Of a stretch of DNA of 64,000 nucleotides, positions 19,939-51,999 are shown one piece after another. The translations under genes were made by a program, and so were the position numbers. Source of the DNA: Verrucomicrobiales bacterium (GTDB taxonomy: Bacteria; Verrucomicrobiota; Verrucomicrobiia; Limisphaerales; UBA9464); contig JAIYBC010000064.1 in assembly GCA_027488845.1 (NCBI GenBank), positions 1 to 64,000 of the forward strand, in the 5' to 3' direction. Under the pieces are notes generated by a model. The model was given only the letters and a program-made list of their open reading frames with translations. It was not told the origin of the DNA and ran no database searches. Every line of letters begins with the position of its first letter. The stretch's first letter is position 1.

Positions 19939-20319
19939 TCATTGCTTCTCGGGCTTGTGCACGCTGTGGCAGGCCTTGCAGTTGACCGCGGCCTTGTAGG
20001 CGTCCATCGCGCCGGGCTTGCCGGCGACGAGGTCGGCGGCGGCCTTGTTCAGCGCCACCGTCTTCTCGGTCCAGCTCGCGAGGTCGCCCGCGGGCGGCTT
20101 GTTCAGGGCCAACTGGGCGACAAGCTCGGCGAGATGCGCGATCTCGGCCGGGGTGCCTTGTCCCTTGGTGACGCGGGCGTTGAGGGATTCCTTGCCTTCG
20201 AAACCCTCTTCCATGACCTGTTCGACGGTCTTGGTGGGCTTGGAGGACATGGACGAGCAGCCGGTGGCGGCGAGCAACGCGACACCGGAGAGCAGGGTAA
20301 CGGTGATCTTGTAGTTCAT
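19939..20319 (-). CDS. Lipoprotein with one C-terminal CxxCH haem motif
   Basis: A 126-residue protein with a lipoprotein signal (MNYKITVTLLSGVALLAATG, then Cys 21), a middle helical region and, close to the C-terminus, NCKACHSVHKPEKQ, a CxxCH c-type haem attachment site. The four-helix length and the C-terminal position of the motif recall cytochrome c' / c-556-like proteins, but I cannot confirm the fold. It would sit in the envelope and could carry electrons. I use ATG 20319: TAATGT ends 5 bases upstream, so translation is probably leaderless; ATG 20328 is in frame but overlaps that hexamer. Confidence 0.75.
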   Translation of the reverse strand: MNYKITVTLLSGVALLAATGCSSMSSKPTKTVEQVMEEGFEGKESLNARVTKGQGTPAEIAHLAELVAQLALNKPPAGDLASWTEKTVALNKAAADLVAGKPGAMDAYKAAVNCKACHSVHKPEKQ

Positions 20320-20444
20320 GGGCGACATTAGACCCGCGGATGGAAACGGATCTCCCCGAGGAACTCAAGCCACGGGAACGAAACCGATGCGGAAGGGAGA
20401 GAATCAGCCGGGGCAATGGGGAGCCTCTTGCCGAATGAACGCGA

Positions 20445-20605
20445 CCTGGGGCGTCGCGAGAGCGTCGTGGAGTGCGCGCGTCCTCTCGCGCTTTCTTTGG
20501 GAGAGACACGGATTTCCACGGATTCCGCGGATTTCATTCGCACCTCCTGACCTGCGCCTACAACGGGGGGCGCACGCTCAGGCACAAAGCCGCGAAGGAA
20601 CGGCG
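20445..20605 (+). repeat. Direct repeat B, copy 1
   Basis: Begins CCTGGGGCGTCGCGAGAGCG, contains GCGAGAG ... CTCTCGC inverted arms, then CACGGATTTCCACGGATTCC and CACCTCCTGACCTGCGCCTA, ending near GGCACAAAGCCGCGAAGG. Near-identical copies in the same orientation lie at 21853-22060 and 25378-25580. Confidence 0.9.
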
Positions 20606-20699
20606 TCGGGCGGCTGGCGTTGGGGGGCGGAAAGTGGTTCGCTGAGAACGGCTGCAGAGCACGGAACCCGGAGATGGAGAAACCGCCGCAGGCCGCCCG

Positions 20700-20800
20700 C
20701 AGTCCCCCCGCAGGCCGCGTGATTGGCAGCCCGTTCCGCTGCGTTCCATGCCCGCCCCAGCATCTTGCCATCCCCTCTACGAGCGGTAGCCTGCTGACGT
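20700..20800 (+). repeat. Duplicated promoter element, copy 1
   Basis: About 75-100 bases ending CATCTTGCCA ... GGTAGCCT resemble 21395-21475 (CATCTTGCCA ... GGTAGCCT). Both precede the ORFs of the AT-rich stretch, so a promoter segment seems to have been copied. Confidence 0.6.
20765..20792 (+). promoter_or_regulatory. Promoter upstream of the HNH gene
   Basis: TTGCCA (20765-20770), 16-base spacer, TAGCCT (20787-20792). The HNH start is 50 bases downstream, so here a normal leader is predicted. Confidence 0.6.
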
Positions 20801-20841
20801 TTCCCTTGCCGGGCTCCAGGCGGTGTGTCGGGACTACGCTT

Positions 20842-21177
20842 ATGCCGAATCGATGGAACATTCCCCTCTGGCTGGAGCGTGAGATCCTTGAGCGAGACAC
20901 TTCGTGCGTTTACTGCGGTGTTGCGTTCCAGCGACCAGAAATTCCAAGACGATCGTGGCCTAGTTGGGAACATATCGTTAACGATGTGAGGGTCATCTCT
21001 CGATCCAATATTGCGCTTTTCTGTATTGGCTGCAACGCAAGTAAGGGGGCTAAGGATCTTGAGGTTTGGCTGTCATCGCCATACTGCCAAAGGCGGGGAA
21101 TCTTGCCAACGACGGTTGCGCCTGTGGTGCAAGAAGCGATCATTCGGCGCTCATCGCTCAACTCTTTTGGTGCATGA
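20842..21177 (+). CDS. HNH endonuclease family protein
   Basis: A 111-residue protein with the HNH/zinc layout REILERDTSCVYCGVAF (first CxxC), SWEHIVND (His of the nuclease motif), RSNIALFCIGCNASKGAKDL (Asn and second CxxC, with the final N-x-x-KG). This is the compact HNH form found in stand-alone nucleases, restriction enzymes and phage or defence genes; the substrate is not predictable. ATG 20842 starts right before NRWNIPLWLEREILERD, typical for these proteins. GC is lower than that of the surrounding chromosome. It lies between direct repeats B1 and B2, so acquisition or shuffling is plausible. No methylase or partner gene is adjacent. Confidence 0.82.
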   Translation: MPNRWNIPLWLEREILERDTSCVYCGVAFQRPEIPRRSWPSWEHIVNDVRVISRSNIALFCIGCNASKGAKDLEVWLSSPYCQRRGILPTTVAPVVQEAIIRRSSLNSFGA

Positions 21178-21473
21178 AGTTTCGAACTTCAGGCCATTCT
21201 GTGAATTTTGGACGTGTCTCTACCAACTGCTTGAATCTCCGCCATCCGCGTCTCCGCGTTGGAACGGATCACCAGTTGACTTTAGCTCGGCAAGCAGAGC
21301 CGCGTAGGAGTTTCGCAACCAAGGGTGCCAAGGGAACCAGGGATTCACCTCGAACCCGGATGCCCGATGCCCTAAGGTTGCGTTATTGCGGCCTAACGTG
21401 GCATTCCGCTCTGCCGCGATCCGTGCTTAACCGAACATCTTGCCAAGCTCTCTCGAAGGGGTAGCCTAAAGAC
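21178..21473. other. Intergenic stretch with dispersed repeats and a promoter
   Basis: Contains a CCGCGTCTCCGCG unit near 21245 and AACCAAGGGTGCCAAGGGAA near 21320, both related to repeats near 25700-25850 and 11087, then the promoter at 21440-21467. No gene seen. Confidence 0.6.
21440..21467 (+). promoter_or_regulatory. Leaderless-type promoter of the small membrane protein
   Basis: TTGCCA (21440-21445), 16-base spacer, TAGCCT (21462-21467), six bases (AAAGAC), ATG at 21474. One of the clearest examples in the window. Confidence 0.7.
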
Positions 21474-21770
21474 ATGACCCCGCTGGCCCGATTGACTGAT
21501 CGCAATACGATATCGATTATCGCGGATTATGCTCTTTTGTTTGTTGCAGGGCTCCTTCTAAGGCTGATCGATTCGCGAATTGCTGTGGGAGCTGTTTATG
21601 CAATTGTTTTCGGTGGGGTGGCTCTAAGTTTTCCGCTATTGTTGGAAATGCTTTTCAAGATCTCTGATGGAAATCGGATTTGGGTTCGGTTGGTTGCTGG
21701 TAAGTTTTCTGTTCTTGCGATAATATTTGCATTCTCGATTCAGCTTCTCAGATATAACCAATATTTGTAG
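21474..21770 (+). CDS. Small membrane protein, unknown function
   Basis: A 98-residue protein of low-GC codon use that I do not recognise. Three hydrophobic segments are visible: about residues 13-31 (SIIADYALLFVAGLLLRLI), 36-60 and 75-92 (KFSVLAIIFAFSIQLL), so an inner-membrane protein is expected. The start is supported by a strong promoter whose -10 ends 6 bases before the ATG. It lies between repeats B1 and B2 with the HNH gene. No motif hints at a role; it could be an immunity or toxin-like small membrane protein, but nothing in the sequence shows this. Confidence 0.6.
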   Translation: MTPLARLTDRNTISIIADYALLFVAGLLLRLIDSRIAVGAVYAIVFGGVALSFPLLLEMLFKISDGNRIWVRLVAGKFSVLAIIFAFSIQLLRYNQYL

Positions 21771-22439
21771 GCAGCCTGTATCAGTATTCAGGTGTGTTGA
21801 GTCCCGGCTTCAGCCGGTCGCGATCTACTCTCATCGAAACGCACCCTTTTTCAGACCCGTCCCCAAGCCGACCCCGGGCCTGAGCGCGCCAGGGGACTCG
21901 GCGGCGATCTGGGGCAGCGCGAGAGCGTCGTGGAGTGCGCGAGTCCTCTCGCGCTTTCTTTGGGAGAGACACGGATTTCCACGGATTCCGCGGAGTCGCT
22001 TCAGGCCTCCGGATCAGCGCATGCAAAAGGGAGCCGCACGCTCAGCCGCGAATCCGCAGCGTGAGGTGTTATGGCCGCAGTCGCTCGCCCCAGTGGTTCC
22101 TCCTCCCAAATCTTCGCGAGCTCGGCGGGAAAACAACTCTCCGGCCGGGCCTTCTTCAGCAGCACTCGAGTGGCGCAAGTAGGGCAGGAGGTTGGAGCCC
22201 CCCGCGATCGAGCCCCAGACTCTTTAAAACGTAAGTTTGGTGAAAATGGGGCGATGCCGATGGATCGGTGCCCTCAACTGATGAGCAGCGAGGCCCGCCA
22301 GTGCACGGCGAGCCTCAATCGTGAGTCTATCTCCGATGAATCTGCGTGGGTTGAAACATATGTTAGGTAAGTTAATCCTTTCACTTTTTGAATTGTTTGC
22401 CACGTGGTTCAATGAGGAAGGTAAACGTATAAAACAAAC
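21771..22439. other. Gene-free stretch with repeat copy 2
   Basis: Holds direct repeat B copy 2 (21853-22060). Base composition turns AT-rich from about 22210. A -10-like TATAAA (22428-22433) ends 6 bases before the next ATG; no convincing -35 is seen. No gene recognised. Confidence 0.6.
21853..22060 (+). repeat. Direct repeat B, copy 2
   Basis: Starts CAGACCCGTCCCC, continues GCCTGAGCGCGCCAGGGGAC, GCGCGAGAGCGTCGTGGAGT and ACACGGATTTCCACGGATTC, and ends near GAGCCGCACGCTCAGCC. It shares its left part with copy 3 and its centre with copies 1 and 3; its right part diverges. Confidence 0.9.
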
Positions 22440-23201
22440 ATGAAAAAATCTTCAGTGGCTATTTCTCTAGCGTTAGTAGCTTCAACGCTTGTAGGTCACG
22501 CAGGTGCGGTTCACGACGCTGGTCTCTTCAGTGTCAGTCTTGGAAGGAACGATGACTCCAGTTCTACGGCTGTTGAACTTGGATTCAATGTTTCAATTGG
22601 AGGAAGAACGTATTCTCGAGTATATGTGAACAACAATGGGAATGTTACATTTAACGGACCGCTTGCAAGCTTTATTCCATCCGCAATCAGTGCTGGAAAT
22701 TACGGTCCAATCATTGCCCCATTCTTTTCTGATATTGACACCCGTAATCCGGCTGCGAGCCCGGTTACCTACGGCCAAGGGGTAATTGGTGGACGTAGTG
22801 TCTTTGGGGTTAACTATTTGAATGTGGGAGAGTATCCGAACGGTGCGATCTTGAACCGAATCCAGCTGATTTTGACCGATCGTAGTGACGTTTCGATAGG
22901 CGACTTCGATATTCAATTTAACTACGATCAGATTGGCTGGGGGCAACGGAATGTCTTGGTTGGATATTGGACGGGCAACGACTCAACTTACACTTTGGAT
23001 GGATCGTTGAGCCCGGGTGCATTTTTAGATGGTGGGCCTAACGCGCTACGGGCGGGCTCGCTAAACAGTTCAGTAAATGGTCAATACAACTTCGCTGTTC
23101 GAGGCGGCGTCGCTTCAGTTGTCCCGGAGCCGAAATCCTTTATTTTACTTGGATTGGGTGCGGTGATCGTTTTTGGTTCTGTCCTGTGTCGCCAACATTG
23201 A
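22440..23201 (+). CDS. Nidogen-like PEP-CTERM exported protein
   Basis: A 253-residue protein with a signal peptide (about 1-23, ending VGHAGA). The body shows a nidogen-like pattern: VELGFNVSIGGRTYSRVYVN, NNGNVTFNGPLASFIPSA, GPIIAPFFSDIDTR, and later IQLILTDRSDVSIGDFDIQF. It ends with a PEP-CTERM sorting signal: VPEPKSFILLGLGAVIVFGS then a short basic tail (CRQH). Such proteins are cleaved and anchored or released by an exosortase, usually with exopolysaccharide; none is encoded here. Codon use is AT-rich. A -10-like TATAAA ends 6 bases before the ATG. A strong terminator follows. It is convergent with the LuxR operon. Confidence 0.88.
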   Translation: MKKSSVAISLALVASTLVGHAGAVHDAGLFSVSLGRNDDSSSTAVELGFNVSIGGRTYSRVYVNNNGNVTFNGPLASFIPSAISAGNYGPIIAPFFSDIDTRNPAASPVTYGQGVIGGRSVFGVNYLNVGEYPNGAILNRIQLILTDRSDVSIGDFDIQFNYDQIGWGQRNVLVGYWTGNDSTYTLDGSLSPGAFLDGGPNALRAGSLNSSVNGQYNFAVRGGVASVVPEPKSFILLGLGAVIVFGSVLCRQH

Positions 23202-23206
23202 CCAAA

Positions 23207-23246
23207 ATGGGTGAAGGTCAGAATTGACCTTCACCCATAGTTTTTA
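23207..23246. terminator. Bidirectional rho-independent terminator
   Basis: A perfect 14-bp stem ATGGGTGAAGGTCA / TGACCTTCACCCAT with a GAAT loop, followed on the plus strand by AGTTTTT and on the minus strand by TTTT. It serves the PEP-CTERM gene and the convergent minus-strand operon. Confidence 0.93.
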
Positions 23247-23250
23247 ACAG

Positions 23251-23556
23251 TTATATTCGATCAGAGAGTAGTATTAATCTTCTTCCTAGAGGCCGCAAGC
23301 CCACTGTCCGCCTCCATCTTGGTATATCATTGATGCCTCGGTTACGAAATGTTTGAACAATGCTGTTCAGTTCTTCGTTTGAAGCGGCGAGGCAACAGTC
23401 CTTTATCAACGTTGTGTCAGGGTCAAATTCGGAAGCGAAAAAAAAGAATCGGAAGAGTGGGAAGTAGAACAGGATTCGCCAATGCAAAGGTAGGCTGTCG
23501 ACTAAGATTTCGTTTACAAGGTATCCACCGTTAATTGTTTTGTACTTTTTAAACAT
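23251..23556 (-). CDS. Small hypothetical protein, last gene of the LuxR operon
   Basis: A 101-residue open frame whose start overlaps the 3' end of the LuxR-type gene by 8 bases and whose stop lies 5 bases before a strong terminator, so position supports a real, translationally coupled gene. Residues about 25-42 (LPLHWRILFYFPLFRFFFFA) form one aromatic-rich hydrophobic stretch; the rest is charged, with TLIKDCCLAASNEELNSIV and a basic C-terminus. No family recognised. AAGGAAG lies some 20 bases upstream of the ATG. It could instead be chance coding in AT-rich DNA. Confidence 0.45.
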   Translation of the reverse strand: MFKKYKTINGGYLVNEILVDSLPLHWRILFYFPLFRFFFFASEFDPDTTLIKDCCLAASNEELNSIVQTFRNRGINDIPRWRRTVGLRPLGRRLILLSDRI

Positions 23557-24487
23557 TGATGTTTAAGTTTAGGCTTCCTTGTTCGGTGAGCTTTCTGGCG
23601 GATGAAATGAAGTATCGAACCCTGCGAGCTGCATTCCTAGCATGGGCATAGACAGTCATTGTTGATATGTTTAGTCGTGTCGCCACTTCTTTGCAGGACA
23701 ATCCTACAGAGCGCAGGTTAAGAATTTCGGCTTCACGCGGAGAAAATCGTTCCAAATTCAAGTTTTGAACTTCAATGGGCAGGCAAATCGGTTCAACCGC
23801 ATTAGGTGATAGATCTCCAGTGTCAGTATTTTTGACCAAGGGTTTCAATCGCTGAAGGAGGGAAAATGAGTTGAGTTGAAGCTTCCCCTGCCCACTGGTA
23901 CTTTCCTGAATGGACGCGGCTTGAAATAGAAGGTTCCACTCTTGGAATGATTCTAGAACGAAAAGTGGAGTGTGATATGCTGTGTTTACATGACTCAGCA
24001 TTTGAATGAGACGGACGCCAACAGCTCCTTGTCCTAGAACACGAATTGCAGCGATATCTATGTGGCCGCAGTTGATTTGGTCTACAGCCTCTTCTGGAGT
24101 AGTTATGAAATCTACATTGAAATGTTTGCTGAATATGCTTTGATTAAAAATAAGGCGTACCGTTTCGGATGCGTCAATAATGCCAAGTTTAGGAGGGGTT
24201 GCTTGAAAAGTACTGGATTCGATTCCTCCTGATGGGCTCCGCTTGGGGAGCATTTGTCTCAAGTCTTCATGAAATCGATGGAAATCTTCTCCGAGTGAAT
24301 ACAGCGCCCCGTCTTCGCAGAGGCAAGCGTCTCCACAAACTGCAATGATGTTTGAGCTTCGAATAGTTGCCCCATCTTTGAAGGAATCGCTTCTCTGAAT
24401 AGTGCCAACGACTCGAACTCCATGACCGCAAGACTCGATTTTCCACTTTTTAAGAATAAACGCTCGTTGAGGGTCAAAAAGATTCAT
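23549..24487 (-). CDS. LuxR-type transcription regulator with degenerate receiver domain
   Basis: A 312-residue protein. The C-terminus (about 243-300) is a LuxR/GerE helix-turn-helix: LERFSPREAEILNLRSVGLS followed by CKEVATRLNISTMTVYAHAR. Residues about 100-185 look like a response-regulator receiver (KLGIIDASETVRLIFNQSIF ... TPLFVLES), but the acid pair is reduced to one Asp and the phospho-acceptor position in DIAAIRVLGQ is Arg, so phosphorylation is unlikely. The N-terminal 75 residues contain DGATIRSSNIIAV and EDGALYSLGE, a small beta-rich domain I cannot name. It is the middle gene of a three-gene minus operon and probably controls local genes, perhaps the convergent PEP-CTERM gene (inference). 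Confidence 0.8.
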   Translation of the reverse strand: MNLFDPQRAFILKKWKIESCGHGVRVVGTIQRSDSFKDGATIRSSNIIAVCGDACLCEDGALYSLGEDFHRFHEDLRQMLPKRSPSGGIESSTFQATPPKLGIIDASETVRLIFNQSIFSKHFNVDFITTPEEAVDQINCGHIDIAAIRVLGQGAVGVRLIQMLSHVNTAYHTPLFVLESFQEWNLLFQAASIQESTSGQGKLQLNSFSLLQRLKPLVKNTDTGDLSPNAVEPICLPIEVQNLNLERFSPREAEILNLRSVGLSCKEVATRLNISTMTVYAHARNAARRVRYFISSARKLTEQGSLNLNINV

Positions 24488-24502
24488 AAATTATTATGCA
24501 TT

Positions 24503-25039
24503 TCAGTTTTTGCTCCTAGACTGGTATGCTTCTACAAGAGTTTTGTATAGTGGATCCGAAGGCCGGAGACCGTGTCGATGCAATTCAATTGCTAGTTCGA
24601 TTTCTTCTCTCCACTCATGAAGGTTTCCAGAAATGACGGCCCAAGCTAGACGAAGCTTTCTCAGAATCTTCAGCTGTGATAAAAGATAGGAAAGAACCAG
24701 TGGATTTTTGAGAATATAGATTTTTAGTCGACGGTCGTAGGCTTTTGAATCATTCGTTGAATCAATGCTGGTCCTCATGGGGATGGCGTACCAGCACGCC
24801 CACAAGAGTTGGCAGATTAGTATGCTGCTGAAAAAGAATGGTGAGATTAAATCCGTTATTTCATTGGAATAAAGTCCCTCCCCTAAGAGTGCTGACAAGA
24901 GTAGCAAGACTCGAAGGTCGATTTCTCTTCTTTGGTGCCAAGCTTCGTCTCCTGATGGATTCGGTGAACGCTTGGCTATCGGTTCAGAACCGGCAGGATT
25001 CCCCTTTCGTTTTGGGTGGGAGGAGGTTTGGGCAACCAT
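24503..25039 (-). CDS. Hypothetical membrane protein upstream of the LuxR gene
   Basis: A 178-residue protein I do not recognise. After a charged, Pro/Ser-rich N-terminus (1-38) come two hydrophobic segments (about 42-54, LRVLLLLSALLG, and 66-86, ISPFFFSSILICQLLWACWY) and then a helical, positively charged cytoplasmic-type region (KIYILKNPLVLSYLLSQLKI; EEIELAIELHRHGLRP). The last part, with HRHGLRPSDPLYKTLVEAYQ, looks TPR-like. It precedes the LuxR-type gene by 15 bases, so a membrane partner of that regulator is possible. Low-GC codon use like the rest of the segment. Confidence 0.62.
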   Translation of the reverse strand: MVAQTSSHPKRKGNPAGSEPIAKRSPNPSGDEAWHQRREIDLRVLLLLSALLGEGLYSNEITDLISPFFFSSILICQLLWACWYAIPMRTSIDSTNDSKAYDRRLKIYILKNPLVLSYLLSQLKILRKLRLAWAVISGNLHEWREEIELAIELHRHGLRPSDPLYKTLVEAYQSRSKN

Positions 25040-25229
25040 TTCGGCATCAGACGCTTCGCGCCTCCATGACGGCTAGGAAAAAGGTTAGGTAACGCAGCAG
25101 GGAGGGTTCCCTGCAAAACGCTGTAAAATGTTAATAAAGTTGCCGCGCTTCGGATCTGTATAAAAAATAGGTATATAATGATGGCGGCATGGTCGCGTTA
25201 GTAGGGTGGCTGGTATTGGAAGTTTTTCT

Positions 25230-25250
25230 CATGAACCATTAAGGTTCATG
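25230..25250. promoter_or_regulatory. Palindrome, operator-like
   Basis: CATGAACC-ATTAA-GGTTCATG, an 8-bp perfect stem, flanked by a T5 tract on the left and an A6 tract on the right. It lies about 190 bases upstream of the LuxR operon. A binding site for that regulator is a guess. Confidence 0.4.
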
Positions 25251-25377
25251 CAAAAAATTCTTGGTCGTGTAAACCCTGGGAGAACCTTTTCTGAAGCGCC
25301 CTTCGAGGGCTGGTTAGGCAAATCCATTCAATGGGAGTGGCGAGTGCACTTTACACGGTGTCTCCAGTTGGTTTGCT

Positions 25378-25580
25378 TCAGACCCGTCCCCTAGGCCTGA
25401 GCGCGCCAGGGGACTTGGCGGCGATCTGGGGCGGCGCGAGAGCGTCGTGGAGTTCGCGCGTCCTCTCGCGCTTTCTTTGGGAAGGACACGGATTTCCTCG
25501 GATTCCACGGATTTCCTTCGCACCTCCTGACCTGCGCCTACAACGGGGGAGCCGCACGCTCAGGCACAAAGCCGTGAAGG
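25378..25580 (+). repeat. Direct repeat B, copy 3
   Basis: Starts CAGACCCGTCCCC as copy 2 does, shares GCGCGAGAGCGTCGTGGAGT and the CACGGATTT block, and then follows copy 1 through CACCTCCTGACCTGCGCCTA and GCTCAGGCACAAAGCCG. It closes the AT-rich stretch on the right. Confidence 0.9.
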
Positions 25581-25694
25581 GCGGGAAGGGGAGCGCAGGG
25601 CTGTCGGCGGGGAGCCTGAACACGGTCCAGTTTTGGCCAATTCGCTTCGGGGTTGCGATGACCTCGGCCGCCCGACCCGAGGGATCCTTCTCCC

Positions 25695-25850
25695 ATTTTT
25701 CCGTTGGCTCCGCGCCTCCGCGGGAGAACTGATTCTCCGCCGGCGTTTTCCCCGCCCGCGGAGATGCGGAGACGCAGAGGAGGTCCCCAACCAAGGGTGC
25801 CAAGGGTACCAGGGATACACCGCGGAATCGGCCGCCCGATGCTCGACGTC
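25695..25850. repeat. Dispersed CTCCGCG-type inverted repeat plus CCAAGGGTGCCAAGGG unit
   Basis: CTCCGCGCCTCCGCGGGAGA and GCGGAGATGCGGAGACGCAG form inverted arms, followed by CCAACCAAGGGTGCCAAGGG and CGGCCGCCCGATGC. The same order of units is seen, more degraded, at 21245-21370. Confidence 0.65.
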
Positions 25851-25970
25851 CAGTTGCTGCGTCTTGGCGCCTCGGCGGGAGGGTGCCTCTCTTCGGGCGG
25901 ACCTGTTCGACGCCGTCGCCCGGTGATTCCCTCCGTTGATTTGCCGTCGGTCTTGGGTTTCAATGCGCTC

Positions 25971-26318
25971 GTGATCCGGGAATTCAAAGGGGTGTCGTGG
26001 CTGTGCCTGCTGTTGGGAGTCTGGCTGGCGGCCGGTTGCCAAAGCGGGGCCAACAAACTGTGGAGCGGTCGGGTCGGGACCTACTCGATGGATGAGGCCA
26101 TCAAGGAACTCGGACCGGCGGATCGGCAGGCGACCACGACGGACGGCGTCACGGTCGCACAATGGCTGGTCGCCCGGTCCCGCGTCTATTCGCGGAACCC
26201 CGGTTTCGCGAGCTGGGGGATGTTCAATTCCGACATCTCCTCGACTCCCGAACTGTACCTGCAGCTCACCTTCGGCAAGGACGGGCGGCTCGCTTCGTGG
26301 AAAAAGGTCATGAAATGA
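25971..26318 (+). CDS. Small lipoprotein, unknown function
   Basis: A 115-residue protein with a clear lipoprotein signal: MIREFKGVSWLCLLLGVWLA then AGC (Cys 23). The mature part (KLWSGRVGTYSMDEAIKELG, later TTDGVTVAQWLVARSR, and YLQLTFGKDGRLASWKKVMK) recalls small outer-membrane-assembly-type (BamE/SmpA-like) lipoproteins that predict one scaled strand set, but I would not name it. I choose GTG 25971 because it gives the ideal signal peptide and lies 6 bases after a hexamer paired with TTGATT at 17 bases; in-frame upstream GTG 25923 is an alternative. The stop overlaps the next start (ATGA). Confidence 0.68.
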   Translation: MIREFKGVSWLCLLLGVWLAAGCQSGANKLWSGRVGTYSMDEAIKELGPADRQATTTDGVTVAQWLVARSRVYSRNPGFASWGMFNSDISSTPELYLQLTFGKDGRLASWKKVMK

Positions 26319-26713
26319 AACGGCAACGCACGGACTCCGGTGTGGACCACGGCTGGATGGGCGCGATGAACCGCGCCATCCGCTGGTGCCTTTTCCTCGG
26401 GATCATCGGTTTCATCGTCGCGCAGTACGTTCCGCTCATCCAAAAGAACCACCGGCTGAGGAAATCCCTGTCGGAATGGCGGGAATCCGAGTCGAGGCTG
26501 GCCTCCGTCCATGCGGCCAACCGGAAGCGCATCCAGGACCTGAAGGAGAATCCCGTCGTCATCGAACGCACCGCGCGGGAGATGCTGCAGTTGGCGCGGC
26601 CGGGCGAGAGCGTCGTCACCTTCCTCAATCCCGCCGGAGCCGGGACAGCGTCTTCCCAGGCATCCGCAGCACCGCCTGCGGTGGTGACCCCGGCCCTCGG
26701 TACCGTCCGTTGA
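26315..26713 (+). CDS. FtsB/DivIC-type septum formation initiator family protein
   Basis: A 132-residue protein with a short cytoplasmic N-terminus, one membrane helix (about residues 24-43, IRWCLFLGIIGFIVAQYVPL), then a coiled coil (KNHRLRKSLSEWRESESRLA) and NPVVIERTAREMLQLARPGE, the conserved tail of FtsB/DivIC proteins of the divisome. The Ala/Pro-rich C-terminus is extra. It starts in an ATGA overlap with the lipoprotein gene. Its role in division as a periplasmic coiled-coil partner (FtsL/FtsQ) is inferred from the family. Confidence 0.82.
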   Translation: MKRQRTDSGVDHGWMGAMNRAIRWCLFLGIIGFIVAQYVPLIQKNHRLRKSLSEWRESESRLASVHAANRKRIQDLKENPVVIERTAREMLQLARPGESVVTFLNPAGAGTASSQASAAPPAVVTPALGTVR

Positions 26714-38237: not shown

Positions 38238-38951
38238 TCAGGCGCGTTTCGCGGAGCGACGACGCCACTGCCAGCCGCCGATGAGGGCCATGGTGCCGAT
38301 GGCAGCCCAGGTGGACGGTTCGGGCACTGGGGTTCCGAAGTAGAACTCCACCTTGCTGCCTTCGGCCGAGCTGTTGAAGGAGGCCGCGGGGGTGAGATCG
38401 AGACTTCCTGTGAGGGTGAAGTCCGTGGCGAAGTCGAATCCGGAGACGGACCAGATCGAGGAGACGATCGTGCCGGTGCTCGAGCTGACGGCGATGGGGC
38501 CGCCGCCGATCGCGGAACCGTTGAGGATCAGGTTGGCGACGGAGACCGTTGCGGTGGTCGAGGAATTCGCCGACCTCGAGTAGATCCCGATGCGCAGCTC
38601 CGGGGCCGGCGTGGAGCCGGCCCAACCCCAACTCGAGGTGACACCTCCGATGACGGTCGTCAGTTGGTTGGCGGTCGAATCGTAGGAGATGGAGAACGGA
38701 TTTCCCGTGGGCGAGGTCGCGTACGTGATGTGCGATGCGGAACGGCCCAACGAGGCGCCGAGATTGCTGCCGATGTAGACCTCGTGGTCGGCGGGGCGGT
38801 TGAACGACCGGTAACGAACCCCGACCTGCGAGGCGAACCCCGGATCACCCGGAACCACCGGGTCCAACTCGTAGGTTTGACCGATTGCCTGGGCGGCAGC
38901 CATTCCGCCAGCCACGACCCCGGCGGCCAAAGGTGTCAGTCGAGTCTTCAT
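38238..38951 (-). CDS. PEP-CTERM exported protein
   Basis: A 237-residue protein with a signal peptide (MKTRLTPLAAGVVAGGMAAA ... IGQ) and a C-terminal sorting signal VPEPSTWAAIGTMALIGGWQ followed by WRRRSAKRA. The beta-rich body (HEVYIGSNLGASLGRSASHI, SISYDSTANQLTTVIGGVTS, LRIGIYSRSANSSTTATVSV) is Ser/Thr-rich and Cys-free, as usual for such proteins. No catalytic motif; presumably sorted by an exosortase and placed at the cell surface or in exopolymer. ATG 38951 gives the signal peptide; an in-frame ATG at 39029 would precede it with 26 residues. Downstream hairpin and oxidoreductase gene on the same strand. Confidence 0.9.
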   Translation of the reverse strand: MKTRLTPLAAGVVAGGMAAAQAIGQTYELDPVVPGDPGFASQVGVRYRSFNRPADHEVYIGSNLGASLGRSASHITYATSPTGNPFSISYDSTANQLTTVIGGVTSSWGWAGSTPAPELRIGIYSRSANSSTTATVSVANLILNGSAIGGGPIAVSSSTGTIVSSIWSVSGFDFATDFTLTGSLDLTPAASFNSSAEGSKVEFYFGTPVPEPSTWAAIGTMALIGGWQWRRRSAKRA

Positions 38952-49401: not shown

Positions 49402-51999
49402 ATGATCAGGCGACTCACCGCAATCGGACTTCTCCTCGGAATCGCCTTGGAGCCGGCCATCGGACGCGACTCGGACACGGGCACGGCCCGGTTGGTCCTG
49501 GACGCGGATACCGGGATCTCGATCCGGGAGGGTTTCGACGCCGAGTTGCTCTACGAGGTGCCCAAGTCCCAGGGATCCTGGGTCGCGATGGCCTTCGATC
49601 CCAAGGGGCGACTGGTCGTCTCCGACCAGGACGACAAGGGTGTCTTCCGCGTGACGCTGCCGACGGAAGGGGCCCCGATCCGGGTCGAGAGCCTGCCGGG
49701 GTTTCCGTATGACCCCGTCGACTGGGGCAAGCGGAAGGTCGGCGGGGCCTACGGCTTCCTGTACGCCTTCGACAGCCTCTACATGTCCAACATGCGGGGC
49801 TTCTACCGGATCCGGGACACGGACGGCGACGACCGGTATGACGAGTTCCAGCTGCTGCGGAAGCTGGACATGGGCTACGAGCACTCGGCCCATTGCATCA
49901 TCCCGACTCCCGACGGGAAGGGATTGTATCTGGTGAGCGGGAACTTCACCGGCGTGCCCGAGGGAGCGTCTTCGGCACAGCCGCCGGTCTGGCAGGAGGA
50001 CACGCTGCTCCCGTCGATTCCCGACCCGATGGGACATGCCGTGGGACTGACGGCCCCCGGAGGCTGGATCTGCCGGATCTCGCCCGACGGCAAGGACTGG
50101 AAGATGATCGCCTCGGGGTTCCGGAACTCCGTGGACATCGCGGTGAACCGCGAAGGCGAACTGTTCACGTACGACTCCGACATGGAGTTCGACATCGGCG
50201 TCCCGTGGTATCGGCCGACGCGGATCAACCACGTCACCAGCGGTGCGGAGTTCGGCTGGCGCTCCGGGTCGGGAGTCTGGCTGGACCACTTCGCGGACAG
50301 CCTCGGGTCGGTGTTGGATGTCGGTCCCGGTTCGCCGACGGCGATCAGCTTCGGACATCACTCCGGCTTCCCGGCGGAGTACCAGGACAAGCTCTTCATC
50401 TGCGACTGGACGTTCGGGACGATCTTCACCGTGGAGCTGCAGGAAAGCAGCTCCAGCTACACCGGCACGAAGACGGAGTTCCTGCATGGCAGTCCGTTGA
50501 ACATCGCCGCGATGCGATTCGGTCCGGATGGGGCGATGTACTTCGTCACCGGCGGCCGCACCACGGCCTCGCGGCTGTATCGCGTCCGGCACACCGGTCC
50601 GAAGACGACGGGCGTGCCAAGACATTTGGTCGCCAACAGCGGGCTGCGGGCCTTGCGCCATTCTCTGGAGGAGTTCCACGTCCGCGGTCAGGGCGGCGCG
50701 ACGGCCGTCGAGCAGGCGTGGCCGCATCTTGCGCATTCCGACCGCAGCCTCCGCCACGCGGCACGTTTGGCCGTCGAGAACCAGGATGTGGCGTTGTGGC
50801 GGGAGAAGGTCTTCGCGGAGGGGAAGCCGCGGGCGGCGATCCACGCGGCCATCGCCTTGAGCCGCCACGGCGACAAGTCCCTTTCCGGACGGCTGCTCGG
50901 CAAGCTCGGCGAGATTCCCTTCGGCACCTTGGAGAGGGAGGACCGGCTGGCGCTGCTCCGGGCCTACGCGCTTTGCTTCCTGCGGATGGGGCGACCCGAG
51001 GGCGGTCAGGCGGCCGACGTCATCGCCCGTTTGGACGCCCATTTCCCCGATGCGGACGACACGGTGAACGCCGAACTCTGCCGTGTCCTTTCCTATCTGG
51101 ATTCACCGACGGTCGTGCGGAAGACCCTCGTGCTGATGAGATCCACGAAAGCGGCGACGGTGGACTACGACAAGGCGATGCTGGGTCGCCATGAGTACGG
51201 CGGGGCCATCCTGAAGATGATGGCCAACACGCCGAACACGCGGAACATCCACTTCGCCTACTGCCTCCGGATCGTCCGGAGCGGGTGGACTCCCGAGGAT
51301 CGGAAGTACTTCTTCGGATGGCTGAACGAGGCCCTGACCAAGGACGGTGGAAAGAGCTTCTCGGGATACATCCGTGCCATCCGGAAGGAGGCCATCGACC
51401 GGCTGGAGACCAAGGACGTCGAGCTGATGGTCGGAATGCTCGGGGACTTTCCCGCCACCGACCTTTCCAAGCTGCCGAGACCGAAGGGGCCGTCCGTGGC
51501 CTGGAAGGTGGACTCCGCGATGGAGCTTTTCTCAACGGCGCTTTCCGGCAGGGACTTCGGGAACGGCCGGAAGATGTTTTCGGCCGGGAAGTGCATCGCC
51601 TGCCATCGCTTTGGCGGTGAAGGAGGCATCTCCGGGCCCGACCTGGGATCGGTGGGTTCACGTTTTTCCGTCCGGGACATCCTCGTGGCCATCTGCGAGC
51701 CCAGCGCCTCGATCTCCGAGCAGTACATGGCGAGCCGGGTGAAGCTGAAGGATGGTGGCAGCCTCCATGGGCGGTTGATCCTCCGGAATGAGAAGGAAGT
51801 CGGTGTGGCGTCGAATCCGTTCGATTTGAACCAGGTCACGAAGGCTTCCTCCACGAACGTGGCGAGCATCGAGTTCTCGAATGTCTCACCGATGCCCCCG
51901 GGCATGATTTCCGGGATGAACCGGGACGAGCTGATGGACCTGATGGCCTACCTGCTTTCGGGTGGCGACCCGAACCACAGGGCGTTCCGGAAGGAATGA
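49402..51999 (+). CDS. PVC-type haem-binding dehydrogenase (propeller plus cytochrome c domain)
   Basis: An 865-residue exported protein (signal about 1-21). The first half is a beta-propeller dehydrogenase-like domain: VAMAFDPKGRLVVSDQDDKG, YDEFQLLRKLDMGYEHSAHC, DWKMIASGFRNSVDIAVNRE, TRINHVTSGAEFGWRSGSGV, FGHHSGFPAEYQDKLFICDW and FGPDGAMYFVTGGR. The middle is helical and HEAT-like. The C-terminus has GKCIACHRFGGEGGISGPDL (CxxCH haem site), then SRFSVRDILVAICEPSASIS and a MPPGM axial-ligand type loop. This architecture is typical of Planctomycetes/Verrucomicrobia and is thought to oxidise carbohydrates or alcohols in the periplasm; substrate unknown. Confidence 0.9.
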   Translation: MIRRLTAIGLLLGIALEPAIGRDSDTGTARLVLDADTGISIREGFDAELLYEVPKSQGSWVAMAFDPKGRLVVSDQDDKGVFRVTLPTEGAPIRVESLPGFPYDPVDWGKRKVGGAYGFLYAFDSLYMSNMRGFYRIRDTDGDDRYDEFQLLRKLDMGYEHSAHCIIPTPDGKGLYLVSGNFTGVPEGASSAQPPVWQEDTLLPSIPDPMGHAVGLTAPGGWICRISPDGKDWKMIASGFRNSVDIAVNREGELFTYDSDMEFDIGVPWYRPTRINHVTSGAEFGWRSGSGVWLDHFADSLGSVLDVGPGSPTAISFGHHSGFPAEYQDKLFICDWTFGTIFTVELQESSSSYTGTKTEFLHGSPLNIAAMRFGPDGAMYFVTGGRTTASRLYRVRHTGPKTTGVPRHLVANSGLRALRHSLEEFHVRGQGGATAVEQAWPHLAHSDRSLRHAARLAVENQDVALWREKVFAEGKPRAAIHAAIALSRHGDKSLSGRLLGKLGEIPFGTLEREDRLALLRAYALCFLRMGRPEGGQAADVIARLDAHFPDADDTVNAELCRVLSYLDSPTVVRKTLVLMRSTKAATVDYDKAMLGRHEYGGAILKMMANTPNTRNIHFAYCLRIVRSGWTPEDRKYFFGWLNEALTKDGGKSFSGYIRAIRKEAIDRLETKDVELMVGMLGDFPATDLSKLPRPKGPSVAWKVDSAMELFSTALSGRDFGNGRKMFSAGKCIACHRFGGEGGISGPDLGSVGSRFSVRDILVAICEPSASISEQYMASRVKLKDGGSLHGRLILRNEKEVGVASNPFDLNQVTKASSTNVASIEFSNVSPMPPGMISGMNRDELMDLMAYLLSGGDPNHRAFRKE

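Follow-up and report, generated by a model that had tools for sequence, protein, structure and literature searches.

The 64,000-nucleotide window analyzed here, part of contig C35 (105,782 bases) in a 5.39-Mb draft genome of a Verrucomicrobiales bacterium, contains an AT-rich island with a NarL/FixJ-type regulator whose receiver-like domain lacks the phospho-acceptor aspartate. Our proposal, in which we place about even confidence, is that this regulator acts independently of phosphorylation under the control of a co-transcribed membrane partner and that it is carried here as an orphan in an exchangeable slot. It centers on the following features:

24503..25039, minus strand: membrane protein of 178 residues, first gene of the operon, with a hydrophobic stretch at about residues 61-86
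23549..24487, minus strand: NarL/FixJ-type regulator with a pseudo-receiver, 312 residues, assigned from domain, fold and alignment evidence
23906..24196, minus strand: pseudo-receiver domain of the regulator, residues 98-194, with Arg149 and the invariant Glu179
23582..23755, minus strand: GerE/LuxR helix-turn-helix (HTH) of the regulator, residues 245-302

A preliminary description of this DNA had announced a LuxR-type regulator with a receiver-like domain devoid of its phospho-acceptor, and both statements hold. The HTH is recognized by Pfam GerE (PF00196, E-value (E) 1e-8, 35.1 bits vs a cut-off of 23.5); names offered for the regulator by PADLOC and PHROGs were discarded, as the match was limited to the HTH. 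Pfam Response_reg reaches the middle domain only below threshold (11.9 bits), and the corresponding part of the AlphaFold2 model matches receivers: the best Foldseek hit is RcsB (E 1.6e-5), DesR and NarL are likewise within the top ten, and VpsT is also a fold match. The rows listed by VIA-align have Z-scores (Z) of 9.7-8.4, a few of them being HTH matches; DivK (1mb0; Z 9.3, root-mean-square deviation (rmsd) 3.4, 95 residues aligned) is an example of the output. An arginine, Arg149, stands at the position of the phospho-aspartate in 10 of 10 proteins of alignment A1 and in all 11 different regulators across alignments A1 and A4, Asp105 is invariant in A1, and Glu179, likewise invariant, occupies the position of the conserved threonine; the matching of Arg149 with the aspartate and of Glu179 with the threonine was made by eye. 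The alignment further contains an invariant R-x-x-G-x-G-A-x-G-V stretch. The eleventh regulator (L034/L064), excluded from A1 for an upstream extension of its frame and included in A4 (10 proteins), retains the invariant residues. Because the aspartate is replaced by arginine, phosphorylation would not switch the receiver-like domain. VpsT-type regulators, which respond to cyclic di-GMP, carry a W[FLM][TS]R motif; as we read the alignment, the window protein has NLL after Trp184, and the equivalent residue of the relatives is followed by VEI across a gap. A literature search found no paper on pseudo-receivers in Verrucomicrobia.

Full-length relatives of the regulator were sought in 50 genomes of the family, and all 10 carriers belong to the genus, where they make up 10 of the 18 other genomes (26-28% identity, E 6e-16 to 4e-19); nine of the records with relatives are metagenome assemblies. 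A profile search of 293 genomes of the order, in which at most seven candidates per genome were scored, returned full-length matches only from the window genome and six of these relatives, plus partial matches. In a phylum sample of 387 genomes (E 1e-8) the window genome was the sole one matched, and a pattern scan with the window regulator alone recovered no relatives.

Directly upstream of the regulator, a protein of 111-121 residues is encoded in 10 of 10 loci of these relatives, at a distance of 21-52 nucleotides in the nine loci measured, and since this order is kept throughout, regulator and upstream partner are a conserved unit. An open reading frame (ORF) resembling phosphoglucomutase/phosphomannomutase follows downstream in every one of the 10 (Pfam PGM/PMM for L038), and the three fully listed loci all have, by reading, a divergent pair of Reg_prop sensor kinase and NarL-type regulator, for which Pfam gives Reg_prop/HisKA_3/HATPase and Response_reg-GerE in L038. 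Between the divergent units lies a 20-nucleotide sequence, CTTTTGTGGAYCTTCCGTTA, that is exact in nine of the 10 loci; its 10-nucleotide core, CTTTTGTGGA, is found in all of them, and an inverted core with at most one mismatch follows about 120 nucleotides away in seven. This conserved sequence, located approximately 120-130 nucleotides upstream of the partner gene (L031-L040), is a candidate regulator site.

According to the accessible part of PMC12632262, pseudo-receivers may be controlled by partner binding, ligand binding, altered amount, covalent change or redox, their switching is called a mystery, and CmrRST and BldM/WhiI are controlled by partner or amount. For the present regulator, control by a partner is the most economical reading because the upstream partner is conserved: activity would be set via protein-protein contact by the N-terminal beta domain and the upstream-encoded protein, with the membrane partner of the window probably holding or freeing the regulator. 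The conserved intergenic sequence and the divergent two-component system of the relatives are the reason why we consider the regulator probably to be controlled also via its amount. In the relatives, partner and regulator are divergent to an ordinary two-component system, a Reg_prop kinase with a NarL-type regulator, and the unit in the window would be an orphan.

Whether the 178-residue membrane protein is the equivalent of the relatives' partner depends on a weak similarity. Neither the other 319 genomes of the order (E 0.01) nor the 18 of the genus (E 0.1) contain a match to it, and the relatives' partner has, by reading, no evident membrane segment. The C-terminal 92 residues of the membrane protein (87-178) can be aligned with the partner family gap-free: the full-diagonal score is reached by 0 of 1000 shuffles, and the overlap score by 1 of 300 whole-protein shuffles and by 0 of 300 shuffles of the C-terminal part. 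The membrane protein is possibly, as judged from its sequence, a relative of the partner family that acquired a membrane segment.

Several results weigh against the proposal. Local alignment scores between membrane protein and partner family are reached by 57 and 35 of 1000 and by 28 and 13 of 300 shuffles, the local score of the hidden Markov model (HMM) by 16 of 425 whole-protein shuffles (500 were made, of which 425 gave a score) and 13 of 500 C-terminal ones, and hhalign assigns the pair P 0.048 and a probability of 1%. The AlphaFold2 model of the full-length regulator is poor, with a predicted local distance difference test score (pLDDT) of 55; among the 18 other genomes of the genus, eight, some of them incomplete, have no full-length relative; and the CTTTTGTGGA core, allowing one mismatch, is absent from the island, its one match in the window being at 51142. 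Partner binding by the regulator and its DNA targets are putative.

The part of the regulator that might mediate such contacts precedes the receiver-like domain:

24251..24460, minus strand: beta domain at the N-terminus of the regulator, residues 10-79

Predicting the structure of this domain had been proposed as a check in the preliminary description; modeled in isolation it comprises five strands and a helix with a pLDDT of 82, and its top structural match is a SANTA domain. Among 350,542 solved chains, Foldseek ranks the SANTA domain of M18BP1 first (9r6h; E 0.085, probability 1.00, TMq 0.51), and the same chain is rank 1 in VIA-align (Z 5.8, rmsd 5.3, 76 aligned), where the next match has Z 5.1 and is thus tied. 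Pfam SANTA (PF09133) is moreover the sole family listed for the isolated domains of the relatives, eight of 10 being matched at 18.3-22.5 bits (L064 at 22.5, the seven others at 18.3-20.6; cut-off 21; E 1.6e-4 to 3.3e-3) over profile positions 1-75 of 92; L062 and L066 gave no match, seven of the 10 members of profile A9 did, and none of four reversed and five shuffled controls was matched. SANTA domains have an N-terminal VxLxDW and a C-terminal GFxxxxxxxFxxGFPxxW motif in the accessible part of PMC9210943. The first is exact in one of 10 domains (L063) and occurs as VxLxxW in nine, with the window retaining L..W only. Two observations argue against the assignment: the C-terminal motif is absent from the domains by reading, and PF09133 does not match the window's own N-terminal domain, either isolated or within the whole protein. 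With whole proteins as queries the scores are lower (L064 19.2 and L065 17.3 bits, below the cut-off of 21; L063 and L067, the latter identical to the L038 protein, are unlisted), which makes true SANTA-type domains somewhat less likely and a propeller blade somewhat more so.

The blade reading holds that the domain is not SANTA-like at all, being instead a degenerate blade of a PQQ-type propeller that merely stabilizes the receiver. It draws on a match of profile A9 to a single blade of 3hxj, a PQQ protein (E 1e-5, 40 residues), which is weaker with other queries (E 0.024 and 0.0059), on matches to designed Cake propellers, where the score adds up over repeated blades, and on the fact that the SANTA chain 9r6h is missing from the sequence searches of solved structures up to E 10. 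However, the Pfam lists of the isolated domains contain no PQQ model up to E 10, no propeller figures in the best 50 structural matches shown, and the 3hxj match spans about half of the domain, whereas the SANTA match covers most of its profile; we regard a propeller origin as unlikely. From the predicted fold and the Pfam matches of the relatives, the N-terminal domain may be SANTA-like, and we do not count it as a member of the family.

Proteins consisting of this domain alone are encoded in G014 (L087:14260-14586, E 3e-5) and, with weaker matches, in G052, G083, G110 and G192. The five proteins (L087, L127, L128, L129 and L130) are roughly 105-120 residues long, carry no Pfam name and are not matched by PF09133; NCBIfam gave nothing for L087. 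Two further matches were rejected: the translation shows no such protein at G025:C105 (E 0.002), and near the one in G306 the closest listed ORF is sugar-kinase-like by reading, with the domain not seen. A fold search of a viral library returned uncharacterized or unnamed proteins first (best E 3e-3). It is conceivable, though we hold it doubtful, that Verrucomicrobiota carry true SANTA-type domains, both fused to regulators and as stand-alone proteins of about 105-120 residues, so that SANTA, known as a module of eukaryotic centromere proteins, would be older than or extend beyond the eukaryotes and would originally have served protein-protein contact in regulators that bind DNA; SANTA domains make dimer contacts and bind CENP-C, according to the accessible parts of PMC13294675 and PMC9210943. 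A literature search of titles and the beginnings of abstracts found no bacterial SANTA domain, which is no proof of absence from print. If the relationship is real, a domain of kinetochore assembly would have a small, easily studied bacterial counterpart.

The regulator unit lies in a segment whose borders, together with its absence from a close relative, had been overlooked in the preliminary description:

20409..20598, plus strand: dispersed repeat, third copy, left border of the entire variable slot (about 20.6-25.4 kb)
21850..22062, plus strand: dispersed repeat, left border of the island
25377..25580, plus strand: dispersed repeat, right border of the island, 86% identical to the left copy

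A comparison of the window with itself places the three copies at 20409, 21872 and 25389. The repeat has 31 matches across the window genome, most of them partial. Both flanks of the slot align with two close relatives, G025 and G032, at 91-95% DNA identity. In G025 the site is empty: position 20598 of the window joins 25421 via a single repeat copy, and an HNH endonuclease-like ORF (20692-21177; phrog_1271, E 3e-6), a 98-residue ORF and the entire island are missing. At the equivalent place G032 has a relative of the 98-residue ORF, a 172-residue ORF and a further copy of the repeat, as well as a PIN-domain gene preceded by a small ORF. As the site is empty in G025 and filled with other genes in G032, the island is a segment gained or lost in a variable, repeat-bounded slot (20441-25580), and its base composition suggests gain rather than loss. 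The 98-residue ORF of the slot (21474-21770) is AT-rich and hydrophobic and shares 78% DNA identity with the stretch in G032. At L028 a further repeat copy adjoins an AT-rich stretch of about 1.3 kb (GC 0.41-0.53), possibly a second slot. Repeat copies also lie near contig ends (contigs C9, C18, C23, C36 and C37 of G000, within about 400 bases of the start), and longer identical copies may interrupt assembly. Two Rfam matches within 20000-26500, both far under the gathering cut-off, were discarded.

Beyond the regulator and the membrane protein the island contains:

22440..23201, plus strand: nidogen-like (NIDO) PEP-CTERM protein, 253 residues, convergent with the minus-strand genes
23251..23556, minus strand: small ORF of 101 residues whose start overlaps the stop of the regulator gene; belongs to a dispersed family of small proteins
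23207..23238, between the convergent units: perfect hairpin with a 14-bp stem and a 4-nucleotide loop, probable bidirectional terminator
25230..25250: palindrome with 8-bp arms, not above chance

The four ORFs are AT-rich, as had been stated (GC 0.42-0.48; GC at third codon positions 0.40-0.45), and differ from three flanking genes (18752, 19939 and 26781; 0.88-0.90 at third positions). Counted per kb, the GC content of the window is 0.62-0.73 outside 21-26 kb; over 23-25 kb it is approximately 44-45%. Such composition, the bordering repeats, the empty site in G025, the different genes in G032 and the membrane protein without a sequence homologue would all fit an island of recently captured foreign DNA in which the genes drift without a joint role. 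The ORFs are intact, however, the regulator shares its key residues, HTH and operon order with the relatives, and the 101-residue ORF has an overlapping start and the terminator is strong, both of which look functional; we therefore consider mere cargo an unlikely explanation. In the proposal favored here, a partner-controlled regulator in an exchangeable slot, the 253-residue protein and the 101-residue ORF would be co-residents, not proven partners.

The preliminary description had gone further and united all four genes in one surface or exopolymer control module, in which the regulator governs the PEP-CTERM gene. The nidogen body of the 253-residue protein stands (NIDO E 5.6e-13), while its PEP-CTERM tail is weak: 16.5 bits vs a Pfam cut-off of 20.7, and 14.4 bits in the protein scan and 18.3 in the genome search for TIGR02595, whose cut-off is 16. 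VPEP and the hydrophobic stretch are present, and the basic tail has one arginine. Relatives (E 1e-12, 37-44% identity) occur in eight of 292 other genomes of the order, all outside the genus and the family, and a literature search found no paper joining nidogen and PEP-CTERM. A common AT-rich island and a common terminator speak for the module, as does the biology of VpsT and CsgD, LuxR-type pseudo-receiver regulators that govern matrix genes, the former being among the fold matches. Yet the ORFs near the 10 regulators include no relative of the 253-residue protein, and a rough PEP-CTERM tail pattern also returned nothing credible from them (one 87-residue ORF in L033); this pattern is incomplete, as it detects the tail in question and misses the one that TIGR02595 matches at window position 38256. 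The 10 loci of the nidogen-like relatives, with flanks of about 1.5 kb, are in turn free of relatives of the three operon proteins, and the genome holds 37 PEP-CTERM matches, among which the 253-residue protein ranks 35th.

The remaining parts of the module fared differently. A single 14-bp terminator between the convergent units is supported by the perfect hairpin, by its folding (z -6.7 on the plus and -7.4 on the minus strand) and by a comparison with 40 shuffled versions of the island (first-order Markov), none of which contained a 12-bp arm. The palindrome at 25230-25250 exists, but its proposed role as the regulator site finds no support, its frequency being at chance level: 0.45 perfect repeats of 8 bp or more would arise in the island by chance, and with up to two mismatches the pattern occurs three times in the window vs 2.1 expected. 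The convergent layout, moreover, offers no common promoter. Taken with the empty neighborhoods this leaves the self-contained module improbable, and the pairing of the 253-residue protein with the regulator seems to reflect shared residence in a variable slot. Of the co-occurrence anticipated for the operon, regulator and upstream partner were recovered in 10 of 10 loci, the membrane protein is only weakly akin to that partner, and relatives of the PEP-CTERM protein and the 101-residue ORF were not encountered there.

The 101-residue ORF is, judging from comparison of its homologues at other places, probably protein-coding, in line with the coding support that had been asked of it. Credible relatives with a C-terminal motif in common occur in G030, G032, G025, G064, G006 and G008 and at two other places in the window genome; weak matches in G096 and G066 were discarded. 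The neighbors differ between loci and elsewhere look, by reading, like housekeeping genes. In G064 the family member (L120:6330-6719) is divergent to a receiver-histidine kinase gene (Pfam), possibly a hint at a signaling link, and in G006 and G008 it lies beside secreted-looking proteins, one with DUF3466 and Ig-like domains; none of the five such proteins read ends in a PEP-CTERM tail. The ORFs surrounding the 10 regulators include no homologue, and the idea that the ORF corresponds to the relatives' partner was rejected (overlap z -0.4, hhalign P 0.15). The 101-residue ORF is not specific to the regulator operon.

With one regulator, one co-transcribed partner, 10 genomes and an invariant arginine and glutamate, the regulator family offers a simple test case for how pseudo-receivers are switched, and the empty site demonstrates that a regulator of such kind can come or go between close relatives. 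EpsA (TIGR03020), an XrtB/PEP-CTERM-associated protein, resembles the window regulator in having a LuxR-type HTH near a PEP-CTERM gene, but the match is confined to the HTH (23.8 bits vs a cut-off of 170). The SANTA domain of KNL2/M18BP1 is similar to the N-terminal domain in being its best solved-structure match, in the alignment of profile positions 1-75 of 92 in eight of 10 relatives and in the VxLxxW start; it differs in that the domain here is bacterial and fused to a response regulator, shows no GFPxxW motif by reading and goes undetected in the window copy. In Clostridioides difficile CmrRST, as described in the accessible part of PMC12632262, a pseudo-receiver regulator adjoins a sensor kinase and a regulator of the normal kind, just as in the relatives, whereas the units here are divergent, the regulator is of the NarL/FixJ and not the OmpR type (accessible part of PMC12548384), and the one in the window is without such a two-component neighbor. 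The closest known systems are the NarL/FixJ pseudo-receivers BldM, WhiI, VpsT and CsgD, which, as far as the accessible parts of PMC12632262 and PMC4395418 extend, likewise combine a receiver fold with a GerE/LuxR HTH, lack or do not use the phospho-aspartate and are presumed to act independently of phosphorylation. What sets the present family apart from them is the extra beta domain at the N-terminus (about 75 residues), the co-transcribed upstream partner and the arginine at the aspartate site, for which the accessible part of PMC4395418 reports 63 such sequences.

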